A program made the position numbers and the translations under genes. Under the pieces are notes generated by a model. That model searched no databases. It was given only the letters and a program-made list of their open reading frames with translations, and was not told the origin of the DNA. From an uncultured Selenomonadaceae bacterium (GTDB lineage Bacteria > Bacillota > Negativicutes > Selenomonadales > Selenomonadaceae), in assembly GCA_905234505.1 (NCBI GenBank), contig CAJOIA010000002.1:1-42724 (forward strand): a stretch of 42,724 bases of DNA, given 5' to 3'. Positions 8,378-16,866 of this stretch are shown in pieces. The stretch's first letter is position 1; each line of letters begins with the position of its first letter.

Positions 8378-8958
8378 TTTGCAATGTTTTTTCCCATGCA
8401 GAAGTAGAAAATCAGCGTTTTCAAAAATCGATTTGGCGTATTGACGCCATTTCTGCCAATTATGTTGTTTTTTACCGAGGAAAAGTCCAAAATCCACGTT
8501 TTAAAAAATGAGAATCGCGTACTGACGCCATTTCTGCCAATTATGTTATTTTTTCACGCCAAAATCGGCGTTTTAAAAAATGAGAATCGCGTACTGACGC
8601 CATTTGTCGCATTTGTGTTGTTTTTTCCCAGTGAAAAGTCCAAAATCAGCGTTTTAAAAAATGAGAATCGCGTACTGACGCCATTTTTGCCAATTATGTT
8701 GTTTTTTACCAGTGAAAAGTCCAAAATCGGCGTTTTCAAAAATGAGAATCGCGTATTGACGCCATTTGTGCCATTTATGTTGTTTTTTACCGGGGAAAAG
8801 TTAAAAATCAGCGTTTTCAAAAATGAGAATCGCATACTGACGCCATTTCTGTCAATTATGTTATTTTTTCCCATGGAAAAGTTAAAAATCACCATGCAAA
8901 AAAATAAAGGTCGCGCCGTGACGCCACCTTTGCGAATGTATTTGTTTTTCCCGTGTCA
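8378..8958. repeat. Tandem array of about 7-8 units, 81-bp period (one 72-bp unit)
   Basis: tgacgcca anchors at 8442, 8523, 8595, 8676, 8757, 8838, 8919 (spacings 81, 72, 81, 81, 81, 81) plus degenerate end units. Confidence 0.95.
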
Positions 8959-11515: not shown

Positions 11516-11708
11516 TTTTCAGCAAGTATAACACAAATTAGAGAAATCTGCGCGAAAGATTAATTTTTCATTAAAATAATTCATATAATCTTGTCGAAGA
11601 AAAAAGTACATGATATGATCTTTTAACGTTATTTTTGGCTCAATTTTTTTAGAGAGGAGGCGAAATTTTCTTTGTAGATTTACTATATTCATGGGAGGGC
11701 AGATTATT

Positions 11709-12887
11709 TTGAAAAAGTTTCTAGTATTGTTAGCGTTTATACTGGTTACGTCATTTAAAACGGTTCTTGCTCAAGAAGTTACAGTTGAAGGATATGGTAT
11801 CGACAGAGATTCAGCCATTCGCAATGCCACTCAAACGGCAGTAGAGCAAGTTGTCGGCGTTTATATCAGTTCGCAAACGCTTATGGAAGATTTTCAGCTT
11901 CAACTCGATGAAATTTATCAAAAATCTCAAGGTTTCGTGAAGGGAATAAAAATTCTAGAGGAAGGCAAGGTCAATTCTTCCACTTACAAAGTAAAAGCCA
12001 GAATTGACGTTGATACAAGCCCGAACGGTAAATTGCTTGACGAACTGACGATGATTTTACAGCTAAATGACCCGCGAGTTGCCGTGATTGTTATTGGCGT
12101 TGACCAATATAGACACAGCGCGCGCGATGTTTTTGCTGAAAGCTGTTTGAATGAAAAACTTGTAAGCATGGGATTCAATCACGTTTTGGACGCCGACAGA
12201 GTTATCAAAATCAACAACGCGGACCTTCTGAATTATATTGCTTCTGGCAAAAGCGGTACTTTTAAAAGCAAAGACAATTCCATTGATTATTTGGTTTTAG
12301 GCAAATACAACAAATTTTCTAATGCAGTGTCCATTCCAAAATTTGGCAATAGCGGAAATGACAACAATCAGCCGAATATAAATCCTGACAATGTTTATGA
12401 TGTCCCGCCGAGGTCAAATGACGCCAGCAGTGTAAAAACTAATTTTAAAAATATCAAGGTGGTTTTGAAAGTTGACGTAATTAAATACGATACCGGCGAT
12501 ATTGTCGGTACCTTCACTGTTGAAGGCAATAATATTAATGTTTATGAAGAAATTGCCTCTCAAAATGCTATCGCGCAGGCTTCCAATGAAGCGGCTGAAA
12601 AACTTGGCGATACTTTAAAAAAATTCAGTTCCAATCCGGTTCAAGGGCTGAGCTTTACACTCGCTGCGAATAATGAAAAAAAACTTCAGCAATGCATTGA
12701 AGAAATTCGCGAGCTTGGTATGGTTAGAAATGTTTACATTCGCGAAATAAAATCTAACGAGGCAGTATTGACGATTGATTCTGAGCAGAAGCCACACGCA
12801 ATTTTTATGGCGCTTAAAGGGAAAACGAAGCTTGAAATTTCTATTGCGAATATGAGCGCCAATAGTTGTAAATTAAAAATTAGTTGA
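11709..12887 (+). CDS. Secreted FlgT-N-like/LPP20-like protein
   Basis: TTG start at 11709 with GGGAGGG RBS; signal peptide KKFLVLLAFILVTSFKTVLAQ; EVTVEGYGIDRDSAIRNATQTAVEQVVGVYISSQT resembles FlgT N-domain. Confidence 0.6.
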   Translation: MKKFLVLLAFILVTSFKTVLAQEVTVEGYGIDRDSAIRNATQTAVEQVVGVYISSQTLMEDFQLQLDEIYQKSQGFVKGIKILEEGKVNSSTYKVKARIDVDTSPNGKLLDELTMILQLNDPRVAVIVIGVDQYRHSARDVFAESCLNEKLVSMGFNHVLDADRVIKINNADLLNYIASGKSGTFKSKDNSIDYLVLGKYNKFSNAVSIPKFGNSGNDNNQPNINPDNVYDVPPRSNDASSVKTNFKNIKVVLKVDVIKYDTGDIVGTFTVEGNNINVYEEIASQNAIAQASNEAAEKLGDTLKKFSSNPVQGLSFTLAANNEKKLQQCIEEIRELGMVRNVYIREIKSNEAVLTIDSEQKPHAIFMALKGKTKLEISIANMSANSCKLKIS

Positions 12888-12900
12888 GGAGGCGAAAAAA

Positions 12901-13689
12901 GTGGCACGGATTTTTTTGTTAAGTTTAATGTTTTCCTTTATTTTGGGAATAAACGCGGCGCTGGCGGAGCCAATAATCGAGAAAGAGCTTGCAGAACGTC
13001 CAAACGTTTCAATTTTGCCATTTAAAAATAAATCTACCATAGTTCCGGAATTTGCCCAAAAAATAGCATTAAGGGACGCGTCGATTGTATCAGATTTTTT
13101 ACTGGAGCGGCTTTGGCACACGGGGCGATTTAGGACCATCGATCGCGAAGAGCTTGAAGAAATTATCAAGGAACTTGAATTTAGCCAAAGCGGGCTGGTT
13201 AGTTCTGTATCGGCCACAACTGCAGGCAAGCAGCTGGGCGTAAAGTACATAATCAGAGGCAGTGTCACCGATATTAGCGTAAAACCGACTACCGCGGCAG
13301 ATATTTCAGTGGCAAATAAAGGCGGCTTTTCGGCTAATAAAGTAACTGTCAGCGCAAGTATTTCTGTAAAATTTGTTAATGTTGAAACTGGCGAGGCGGT
13401 GCTTATAGCTTCTGGCACGGGCAAATCTTCGCGGGGAGATGCCGAATTAAGTATCAACGAAAAATATTATGAAATCTCCGGCACTATCAGCGATGGTAGC
13501 GGTGAACATTTTGAAGCGACAGCCAAAATAAAAAAAGATATTGGATACTCAGTTAAAGTTGGTAGCAGTGAAGTCAGCCAAATTCAAGTTAGAAACGCTC
13601 TTTACAAAGCCGTAATTGATGCTGTTGAAGACAAAGATTATGGACTTTTGGCGCTAATTGACGGCTCGACAAAAAAGAGAAAGGTTTAA
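12901..13689 (+). CDS. CsgG/HfaB-family protein, signal peptide but no lipobox
   Basis: GTG start; NVSILPFKNKST...IVSDFLLERLWHTGRFRTIDREELEEIIKE...GKQLGVKYIIRGSVTDI...VSASISVKFVNVETGEAV. Confidence 0.75.
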   Translation: MARIFLLSLMFSFILGINAALAEPIIEKELAERPNVSILPFKNKSTIVPEFAQKIALRDASIVSDFLLERLWHTGRFRTIDREELEEIIKELEFSQSGLVSSVSATTAGKQLGVKYIIRGSVTDISVKPTTAADISVANKGGFSANKVTVSASISVKFVNVETGEAVLIASGTGKSSRGDAELSINEKYYEISGTISDGSGEHFEATAKIKKDIGYSVKVGSSEVSQIQVRNALYKAVIDAVEDKDYGLLALIDGSTKKRKV

Positions 13690-13692
13690 AAT

Positions 13693-14508
13693 ATGACTGT
13701 GAGATTTTTAATACTGGCGCTGTTTTTTTGCATTTTTAACTTTAACGTGGCGAATGCTGAGCAAGCGGCGGCGGAGGAATATCGGAAAATTTTTAGCTCT
13801 GGCAATTTTTACATCGAATTTCGCGATAAATGGGGGACGCGAATTTTAGCCGGTAAAAATGGCATGCGCATGGAAAGAATGCGCTACGATGCAGAAAGCG
13901 GCGATATAGCTTGGTTGAATCCGCTCGGCGCAATTTTCCACAAAGAAGATAAAAATCCTGAAGTATTATACAGGGACGGCAAATTTTATAATTTCATTGA
14001 AAAAAAGCGCGCTAATGTTTGCGACGCCGACAAAATTAATAGCGAAGAATTAAATCCACGTAGCGGCTGGAATAAAATTTCTCAGAAGTTGGCTCTGCCG
14101 GATGAATTAGCTGTTTTTTATTGGGAAGATTCATTTAGATTGAAAAGCTCCGCAATTCCCGCGCCGACCTTCAAGGAAAGCCTCAAAAAAAAGGTCGACG
14201 GCAAAGATTACGATTGCGACCGCTACAGCTGCGATATAAAAAATTTGGCCGGTGGCGGCGCGGCGGCTTTGGTTTACGAAATGTTTTACAAAGACGGCAA
14301 TTTATTTCGCGCAGAAAGTTACCTGGTGCGCGGCGGCAAAATTTATCCGATTAACATTTTAAAGATACAGAAAATCCAATCGGAAATTCCTAAGGATACT
14401 TTTAAAATTGAAAAAAATACTGAGCTTTATGCAGCGGGGATGGGCGACATGAACGACCTTCTAGAAAAGCCGGTAAAAATCGGTACAATGGAGGCTGAAA
14501 CTTTATGA
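13693..14508 (+). CDS. Secreted hypothetical protein (possibly outer-membrane-lipoprotein-carrier-like)
   Basis: signal peptide MTVRFLILALFFCIFNFNVANAEQ; EEYRKIFSSGNFYIEFRD start resembles the next CDS. Confidence 0.6.
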   Translation: MTVRFLILALFFCIFNFNVANAEQAAAEEYRKIFSSGNFYIEFRDKWGTRILAGKNGMRMERMRYDAESGDIAWLNPLGAIFHKEDKNPEVLYRDGKFYNFIEKKRANVCDADKINSEELNPRSGWNKISQKLALPDELAVFYWEDSFRLKSSAIPAPTFKESLKKKVDGKDYDCDRYSCDIKNLAGGGAAALVYEMFYKDGNLFRAESYLVRGGKIYPINILKIQKIQSEIPKDTFKIEKNTELYAAGMGDMNDLLEKPVKIGTMEAETL

Positions 14509-15284
14509 GAAATTTTTTAATTGCCGTCCTGCTCATTTTTTTGTGTCAGGCGGAAGCGGAGGCGGCAAAAATTGATATATATCGCGAAATGCTTTTGCGA
14601 AATTCTTATACAATTCGCTATGAAAATTTGACTCCGCCGCCACGTGAGACCAATAAAGATCGCGTTGAACTTTATGGTAAAAGCGGCTTGGCTGTTTCTG
14701 AAAATGATTATTTGACGTACCGCTCAACCAGTGGCGTTGTTACGGCGGACGGACAAAATCGCTATGAAGAAGTTGGCGACGAAGATTTTAAACTTTGTAG
14801 GCTTTCGAAAGACGAGGAAGATTTTTTCTTCAGCAAGTACAAGAAAAAAGATCGCTGGGAATATTTTGGCACGCGCAAAAATCGCGTTGTTGCCAATGAA
14901 AAGAATTATCTGGCTGAAATTCTTGAAGGCAAAAGCTACGGCGATTCTGATATGTCTCACTTTTTAAACGCCATTCTTCCAAATACTGAAAAGAGCGCTC
15001 AAAATTCCAGTTATCGATTTATCGCGCAGGGCAGATTGGCTAATGGGCTTTTTTATGAAGATTATCGCTCGGACGATAATGGGATAACTGAAGCGGTTCG
15101 TTATTATTTTTCCGGAAATAATTTGGTAAAGATAGCCGCTGCTTCTTATCACAAAAATAGCGACGGCAAAATTGACGGGCGCAGATGCATTATTAAAATC
15201 CAAGAATTTTCTTCGACGCCGGATAAATCTCTATTGAAATTGCCGGAAGGTGTTAAAGATGAAACTAAACGTAAGAAAAAATAA
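14505..15284 (+). CDS. Secreted hypothetical protein, diverged relative of preceding CDS
   Basis: ATGA overlap with preceding gene; signal peptide MRNFLIAVLLIFLCQAEAEA; IDIYREMLLRNSYTIRYEN. Confidence 0.6.
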   Translation: MRNFLIAVLLIFLCQAEAEAAKIDIYREMLLRNSYTIRYENLTPPPRETNKDRVELYGKSGLAVSENDYLTYRSTSGVVTADGQNRYEEVGDEDFKLCRLSKDEEDFFFSKYKKKDRWEYFGTRKNRVVANEKNYLAEILEGKSYGDSDMSHFLNAILPNTEKSAQNSSYRFIAQGRLANGLFYEDYRSDDNGITEAVRYYFSGNNLVKIAAASYHKNSDGKIDGRRCIIKIQEFSSTPDKSLLKLPEGVKDETKRKKK

Positions 15285-16125
15285 ATTGTTGGCGGCAATT
15301 ATTTTTATATTAGCTGCAATTTTTTTTATCCCTGCGCCGACTTCTGCGCGAGGAAATAATCCAACTTGTGTCTTGCTTAAATTTACTGATGATACGCGCT
15401 ATGACAAAATTGATTCCGCCGGTAACCTTTCAGAGCTGTTGCTTGAAAAAATGCAGAAGAGTAAACGCTTTAATTTTATCGAGACTGAAATTATTGACGC
15501 GAATTTGGAGGCGCGACTTTATGACGAAAAAGTTGACGAACTAACCAGATTTGATTCAGCAATAAACAGCGGCAATTACAATGAACTTTTTGAAGGCGAT
15601 GGTTTTAATGAAAATAAAGCTCAGTCCATCGTTATGGCGCAGGTTGGACAATTTATCACGCCGGAAATTACAGCTGAAATTGGCAAGCTTCACAATGCTG
15701 AATATCTTATTCAAGGTACGATTATAAATCTTGGCACGGGCAGCTGGCTCAGTGAAGATTTAGAATTTGTTTCCGGTGCAGTCAGCGGCATTGCACGGCT
15801 GGCCAGTTCTCAAGCTTCAAATCTTGTTGGGAAATCATTAAGCGCTTTGAAATTTATGGGGGAGTTGGGCGAAGTTAGCGTTACGCTTAAAGGTATTGGT
15901 GTTCAATGCGACGTACGCGTTATAAAAGCGGCGACGGGCGAAGTTGTTTGGAGCAAGCGCGTGGTTGGCAAAGGGCAAAGTGAATTTGTGCAGGTTAATT
16001 TTCTCAGATTCGGTCACGAGAATTTAAGTAGCGCGCTTTATACCAAGGCAATGAATGACGCGACGGATAAAATTGTCAAGGCGCTGATTGACGATTTGGA
16101 TTCAAATAAACTTTTCCTGAAATGA
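15259..16125 (+). CDS. CsgG-like secreted protein
   Basis: ATG 15259 (or GTG 15250); signal peptide; NAEYLIQGTIINLGTG...CDVRVIKAATGEVVWSKRVVGKG CsgG-like core. Confidence 0.65.
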   Translation: MKLNVRKNKLLAAIIFILAAIFFIPAPTSARGNNPTCVLLKFTDDTRYDKIDSAGNLSELLLEKMQKSKRFNFIETEIIDANLEARLYDEKVDELTRFDSAINSGNYNELFEGDGFNENKAQSIVMAQVGQFITPEITAEIGKLHNAEYLIQGTIINLGTGSWLSEDLEFVSGAVSGIARLASSQASNLVGKSLSALKFMGELGEVSVTLKGIGVQCDVRVIKAATGEVVWSKRVVGKGQSEFVQVNFLRFGHENLSSALYTKAMNDATDKIVKALIDDLDSNKLFLK

Positions 16126-16134
16126 GGGCTTAAC

Positions 16135-16767
16135 GTGTTGAAAAGTATTTTCGCTACGATTTTATGTTTTGCCATTTTTGCTAATATCGCGCAGGCGGCG
16201 GAAAAACCGCGCGTCGTTGTAATGGATTTGGGCGCGCGCCATTCCAGCGAAATATCTTCTGAAAATATTGGAGCGATGGCCTCGGATTATCTTTTAGAAG
16301 CGCTTTGGTCAACTAATAGATTTGCGGTCATGGATTGGGAAAATGCGGAAGAGGAAATTATTACCTCAAAATTGCCGACCAGTGGACTTATCCCACCGAG
16401 CGCGGCGCGGGAAATCGCTAAGCTTTTGAATGCCGATTATATAATTTACGGCAACATCAGCAGCGTTGACAGCAAAGATTTAGTTTTTGAAATTGCGGGC
16501 AACGGCGGAAATTTTCGCTCTATCAAATCGGCTCTGATTGTTCGCATGATGGATGTTAAAACTGGCGAAATTCTTGTTGTGGCAAAAGGCAAAGGCGCGT
16601 CCAAAAGCTCGGAAATTAGAGGCGGCGCGAAAAATCTTGCTTACATAACGATAGGTACCAAAAAAGTTCCTTCAATCTGCGTCCACAATGCCATTAAGAA
16701 AGCCACCTTTGCCGCGGCTGAAGAAATTGTTGCAGAGTTTTTTAATGAGCCGCTGAAGAAAAAATAA
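16135..16767 (+). CDS. CsgG-like secreted protein
   Basis: GTG start; PRVVVMDLGARHSS...SDYLLEALWSTNRFAVMDWENAEEEI...LLNADYIIYGNISSV...LIVRMMDVKTGEILVVAKG. Confidence 0.7.
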   Translation: MLKSIFATILCFAIFANIAQAAEKPRVVVMDLGARHSSEISSENIGAMASDYLLEALWSTNRFAVMDWENAEEEIITSKLPTSGLIPPSAAREIAKLLNADYIIYGNISSVDSKDLVFEIAGNGGNFRSIKSALIVRMMDVKTGEILVVAKGKGASKSSEIRGGAKNLAYITIGTKKVPSICVHNAIKKATFAAAEEIVAEFFNEPLKKK

Positions 16768-16821: not shown

Positions 16822-16866
16822 TTGCAACAAAAAAAAATCCTGTAGTATAATTACCGCAGGATTTTT
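16822..16866 (+). promoter_or_regulatory. Candidate sigma-A promoter overlapped by a 10-bp inverted repeat upstream of the DJ-1/PfpI gene
   Basis: TTGCAA-N18-TATAAT (16822-16827, 16846-16851); AAAAATCCTG (16833-16842) / CAGGATTTTT (16857-16866). Confidence 0.5.

Follow-up and report, generated by a model that had tools for sequence, protein, structure and literature searches.

In a 42,724-nucleotide stretch of DNA from an uncultured Selenomonadaceae bacterium (GenBank contig CAJOIA010000002.1; the whole stretch that was analysed is hereafter called the window), six tightly packed plus-strand open reading frames (ORFs), named A to F, occupy positions 11709-16767 (Table 1). An earlier note, made from the sequence alone, had described six packed genes with two overlaps and a signal peptide on each product, and all of this was borne out. 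C and D share 4 bp (ATGA) and D and E share 26 bp, and Sec-type signal peptides with A-x-A-like ends were read from the sequence of all six proteins, none of which contains a lipobox. A Shine-Dalgarno sequence (GGGAGGG) lies approximately 9 nt upstream of the TTG of gene A, and an in-frame ATG at 11691 lacks a good one. The inverted repeat listed in Table 1 lies 3' of the operon and 5' of a DJ-1/PfpI gene, with a loop exceeding the range of the terminator scan; promoter and terminator scans gave nothing better than shuffled sequences.

Table 1. Operon A-F and the inverted repeat downstream of it
Feature	Position	Strand	Start	Assignment
Gene A	11709..12887	+	TTG	FlgT-like; N-terminal FlgT_N/FlgP (SHS2) domain, then CsgG/FlgT_M-like middle domain
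Gene B	12901..13689	+	GTG	CsgG/LpoB/FlgT_M-superfamily periplasmic protein
Gene C	13693..14508	+		Secreted protein, predicted LolA/LolB-like half-barrel
Gene D	14505..15284	+		Secreted protein, predicted LolA/LolB-like half-barrel
Gene E	15259..16125	+		Diverged member of the CsgG superfamily carrying a Gly/Ala-rich insert
Gene F	16135..16767	+	GTG	Periplasmic protein of the CsgG/LpoB superfamily, closely related to B
Perfect 10-bp inverted repeat AAAAATCCTG/CAGGATTTTT	16833..16866	+		Possible terminator with a loop of 14; found by inspecting the sequence

The operon is conserved well beyond this strain. In a survey of 33 loci holding 40 C genes, D and then E followed within 100 bp of C in 37 cases, and the other three are explained by the end of a locus, an ORF fusion and a remnant. 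The triplet C-D-E is thus indivisible. B stood directly upstream of C in 20 cases, 19 of which also had A. Scanning of species genomes detected C in rumen and gut Selenomonadaceae, Selenomonas ruminantium HD4, Schwartzia and Phascolarctobacterium, and altogether in 52 of 381 Negativicutes genomes belonging to two families (two of the 52 matches were weak). No credible score was obtained among the other phylum members scanned, and the single phylum-wide match outside the class (G468, E 4e-4, 34 residues in a 1170-amino-acid frame) was judged to be due to chance. The neighbourhood, whose absence beyond this strain would by the earlier note have counted as a refutation, is conserved in at least two families. 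A second copy was found in the window's own genome (contig C64, L008:1-6876) with 63-89% protein identity and the order ABCDEF, A being cut by the contig end and F followed by an LPP20 gene. The ratio of non-synonymous to synonymous substitution rates (dN/dS) between the two copies was approximately 0.1 for C, D and E and 0.19 for B and F. The conserved order and low dN/dS show that the operon is under purifying selection and far from a chance arrangement. As for the origin of the second copy, its C and D are nearer to those of the G005 operon (L081) than to the window copy, yet it is the window copy that shares flanking genes with G005; the L008 copy may be a relocated duplicate, a product of gene conversion or a mis-binned contig.

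No Pfam or NCBIfam model covers C or D: neither the 29 members of C nor the 30 members of D gave a credible Pfam match, LolA (PF03548) included, no NCBIfam match was obtained, and both profiles found nothing credible among PDB sequences. We analysed the two proteins further by AlphaFold structure prediction from family alignments, which gave mean pLDDT (predicted local distance difference test) values of 82.8 for C and 84.1 for D. In both models a helix at the N-terminus leads into a long antiparallel meander. In Foldseek searches the best solved relatives of the C model were two Porphyromonas proteins, LolA of P. gingivalis (E 4e-5, probability 1.00) and LolB (E 1.6e-4), together with an ependymin-related protein; matches to YmcC (2in5) and YmcC-like proteins were weak (E 0.08-0.09). 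The D model matched the Thermus protein 2yzy (E 5e-5), LolA of Rickettsia bellii (E 6e-4, probability 1.00), an ependymin-type protein and, lower down, LolB of Vibrio cholerae (E 0.024). These results point to a LolA/LolB half-barrel as the predicted fold of both proteins; because the template-modelling scores (TM-scores) are modest, we limit the claim to a shared fold and do not extend it to family membership. The earlier note had taken C and D for diverged relatives of each other. What stands of this is their common predicted fold, their sequence likeness being weak: an apparent similarity at 94-97% probability had included the signal peptide, and the mature profiles gave a marginal match of 5% probability (E 0.007).

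The assignment of B, E and F as CsgG-like proved correct at profile level, with all three above the Pfam CsgG (PF03783) cut-off of 20.8 bits (B 66.1, F 60.8 and E 29.7, the match of E being to its C-terminal part). The B profile matched solved CsgG with E 2e-5 over the core and the region of the first transmembrane hairpin (TM1). In profile-profile comparisons B and F were close (E 8e-35), and the divergent E matched F (E 3e-13) and B (E 8e-7); the E profile found nothing credible among PDB sequences. Hydropathy analysis of relatives showed the Gly/Ala-rich insert of E, situated between CsgG-like strands, to be moderately hydrophobic. By a simple alternation score, the TM1-equivalent segment is amphipathic, with a Kyte-Doolittle (KD) value of 3.1-3.3 for its hydrophobic face, and the TM2-equivalent segment, corresponding to the second CsgG hairpin, scored 1.2-1.6; in B and F this second segment is polar, with an abundance of Lys, Ser and Gly. 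A lipobox-like motif was present in 0 of 51 B-search members, one of 34 F members and four of 38 E members. B and F also exceeded the Pfam LpoB cut-off of 22.3 bits (32.2 and 23.8 respectively), and both fell far below the 110.55 cut-off of the NCBIfam LpoB equivalog (27.6 and 32.3). Two B homologues stand out: that at L084:7504-8622 (372 amino acids) has a long DETKTDETNM-type repeat insert, and that at L106:6278-7990 (571 amino acids) is unusually long.

For gene A, the proposed likeness to the FlgT N-domain holds at profile level. Its score against Pfam FlgT_N was 26.7 bits, just under the cut-off of 28.8, and its profile matched Campylobacter jejuni FlgP (9hmf_C) with E 1.4e-7 in a gapless alignment that includes the insert region. 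FlgP and FlgT are outer-membrane-associated ring formers, and in the FlgP family ring formation has been reported to accompany the insert, as in FlgT rings (PMC12222027). The middle of A matched the B and F profiles (E ~1e-7), indicating a CsgG/FlgT_M-like domain; FlgT_C was undetected in A and B. A protein combining CsgG and FlgT_C adjoins an A-like, FlgT_N-like protein at L060:6762-9689, where an LPP20 gene is also present, and at L010:5130-7065, on contig C45 of the window's genome. Since such pairs occur more widely in Negativicutes as well as on contig C45, A and B seem to be related to a 'split FlgT' pair that would have been joined by C-D-E in this clade. Taken together, the results support the picture of a conserved envelope operon, undescribed until now, that encodes one FlgT-like protein, three of the CsgG superfamily and a pair of related secreted proteins. 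Of the two outcomes that the earlier note had named as refuting it, absence of a CsgG/FlgT fold or of conservation beyond this strain, neither was seen, the fold assignments holding at profile level. Literature searches found nothing joining CsgG with LPP20 and FlgT, or with LpoB/TolB/FlgT, and for CsgG in Negativicutes only unrelated work turned up.

The operon is frequently linked to a surface barrel. An autotransporter-type beta-barrel, of type AT4 or AT7, was found in 19 of the 33 loci, and six loci (L093, L094, L095, L097, L099 and L101) consist of C-D-E beside a barrel with no A, B or F directly adjoining. In S. ruminantium HD4 the barrel gene lies inside the operon between E and F, at distances of 3 bp and 37 bp respectively, and encodes a passenger-less protein of 350 amino acids with a signal peptide and a C-terminal F. 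AT4 barrels mostly end in F as well. The Pfam autotransporter family PF03797 matched an AT7 member with E 7e-25 and one of 13 AT4 barrels with E 7e-9; hhalign detected no relation between AT4 and AT7 barrels, and the AT4 profile found nothing credible among PDB sequences. In seven genomes, nine of 13 barrel copies lay within C-D-E loci. Genes for an LPP20 protein and for secreted SH3-type proteins containing M23-, NlpC- or C39-like parts (the SH3 and M23 labels being assigned by eye) also recur beside the operon, as do those for dockerin-bearing proteins and for RTX-like or VWA proteins. The dockerin-type repeats of secreted proteins beside the operon in rumen Selenomonadaceae (L090:6953-8182, L087:6344-7042 and L110:12302-14077) are unexpected here, outside cellulosome builders; the L090 protein matched Pfam Dockerin_1 with E 1e-19, and the L087 and L110 calls were made by eye.

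We propose that A-F constitute a periplasmic/outer-membrane assembly module serving the linked surface barrel proteins, a reading to which we assign a probability of about 45%. It starts from what was computed: the gene set, its order and conservation, the predicted folds and the genetic linkage to the barrel. We infer that C and D may act as soluble LolA-fold carriers, holding hydrophobic segments of a barrel protein, or a lipid, across the periplasm, with E as the CsgG-superfamily partner that always accompanies them. A, B and F, with the LPP20 protein in many loci, would supply ring or scaffold parts of the FlgT/FlgP/LpoB type at the face between the wall and the outer membrane. The client would be the autotransporter-type barrel encoded beside or inside the operon, plus the linked secreted wall-active proteins. 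Within the window's genus, 21 genomes had both C and an AT4 barrel, three C only, four the barrel only and 38 neither (Fisher's test, 2e-10); this test ignores phylogeny, and the barrel scan left out 21 genomes of the class, both of which weigh against the proposal. So do several other points. AT4-like barrels are common in Negativicutes without C, and thus C-D-E is not a general requirement of the barrel. Approximately 40% of the loci have no visible barrel, in part because of contig ends; there is none in the window, and the relatives of the barrel in the window's genome are on other contigs. Finally, the Foldseek TM-scores for C and D were 0.3-0.5, with E-values of just 1e-3 to 1e-5.

Other readings of the same operon have to be weighed against this module. 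B, E and F could form a CsgG-type export pore, possibly hetero-oligomeric, for linked proteins or fibres, the proposed cargo being the wall hydrolases, dockerin proteins and SH3 proteins, with C and D as periplasmic chaperones. The three CsgG scores, the strongly amphipathic TM1-equivalent strand of B (KD 3.3) and the secreted, cargo-like genes 3' of the operon in many loci are consistent with a pore. However, CsgG is a lipoprotein whose channel is a 36-stranded barrel (PMC7304575), yet a lipobox-like motif is absent from every B member and occurs in a few of the others at most, and the TM2-equivalent segment is polar in B and F. The hetero-oligomeric pore of the earlier note therefore finds little footing in the lipobox-less B, E and F of the window, and we regard an export pore as unlikely. 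A different emphasis makes C and D a LolA/LolB-like pair moving lipoproteins, or glycolipids, to the outer membrane, with LolA or LolB among the best folds for both. This is attractive because PF03548 LolA was detected in none of the 381 Negativicutes genomes, with positive controls, and because Negativicutes have been reported to be without Lol components, although 17 of 78 proteins of the Veillonella outer membrane are predicted lipoproteins (PMC5007114; PMC5491611). The distribution of C, confined to 52 of those genomes in two families, is so patchy that C and D cannot be a general Lol pathway; none of the operon's own products is a lipoprotein, and no LolCDE-type genes were noticed beside the operon, no genome-wide search having been made. 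Such a lipoprotein shuttle appears quite improbable, and we place in the same low range the idea that C and D function as analogues of LolA and LolB and, together with the CsgG/FlgT-superfamily proteins, pass hydrophobic or acylated cargo to the outer membrane by an independent envelope-trafficking route.

The weak match of C to YmcC, combined with the linked barrel, suggests an analogy with GfcB-GfcD/YjbF-H, in which a YmcC-fold protein goes with an outer-membrane barrel, and hence a set for exopolysaccharide or capsule export or anchoring. The recurrent neighbours included no recognisable glycosyltransferase or polysaccharide-export family, and to our knowledge Gfc operons have no CsgG or FlgT parts, which counts against this explanation; its chance of being right is again small. 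Control of peptidoglycan synthesis, with B and F activating wall synthases in the manner of LpoB and being co-expressed with wall-active enzymes, would fit the Pfam LpoB scores, the match of the F profile to solved LpoB (E 0.003) and the linked SH3-type, M23-like and NlpC-like secreted genes. The CsgG scores are far above those for LpoB, though, there is no outer-membrane lipid anchor, no penicillin-binding protein (PBP) gene was recognised nearby, and C, D, E and the barrel are left unexplained, so that this role seems slighter still in its prospects. The resemblance of A to FlgT_N/FlgP, together with the presence of FlgI in the window's genome and most Selenomonadaceae, could suggest an accessory of the flagellar outer-membrane ring, a link that the earlier note had drawn. 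We reject it as highly improbable: FlgI, the P-ring protein, was found in no genome of the Acidaminococcaceae (f15; the family name rests on named species records), yet six of them carry C, and the C-bearing genomes without flgI include ones that are 91-100% complete (G063, G075 and G097). Moreover, many flagellated relatives lack C, and the recurrent neighbours are the barrel, LPP20 and secreted wall-enzyme-like proteins, with no flagellar gene recognised among them.

Compared with known systems, the operon shares the CsgG domain of B, E and F with CsgG but differs from it in the missing lipobox, the polar TM2-equivalent, the three paralogues in one operon and the accompanying predicted LolA-fold proteins; curli partners CsgA/B/E/F were not recognised among the recurrent neighbours scanned, no genome-wide search having been made. 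With FlgT, FlgP and LPP20, which are SHS2-type ring proteins at the outer-membrane face, it shares the FlgT_N/FlgP-like domain of A, followed there by a CsgG/FlgT_M-like one, and the LPP20 gene linked in many loci, whereas its distribution is not flagellar and A and B have no detectable FlgT_C. The predicted fold of C and D is that of the periplasmic lipoprotein carrier LolA and its receptor LolB, but C and D have no LolA sequence match and low TM-scores and are patchy in distribution, in an operon without lipoproteins. B and F resemble the PBP1b activator LpoB in exceeding its Pfam cut-off and differ in being exported without a lipid anchor, in their longer hairpins and in their other partners. 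The proposed role in aiding outer-membrane barrels and autotransporters would be that of TamA/TamB and BamA/Skp, to which no sequence relation was noted; Negativicutes have been reported to hold their own TamB-BamA-Skp cluster elsewhere (PMC5007114).

Negativicutes are diderm Firmicutes in which outer-membrane biogenesis is poorly known and the Lol carriers are reported missing, and it is in this class, reported to be without LolA/LolB by sequence, that C and D have a predicted LolA fold. The combination of two such proteins with three members of the CsgG superfamily and one FlgT-like protein, next to a surface barrel, offers a concrete candidate, open to testing, for clade-specific assembly of the outer membrane in rumen bacteria; Selenomonas ruminantium, a cultured species, has a copy of the operon.

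Elsewhere in the window, a tandem array with an 81-bp unit in 6.4 copies occupies positions 8385-8891, between a chloride-channel-like gene and a methyl-accepting chemotaxis protein (MCP) gene, and is open on both strands.

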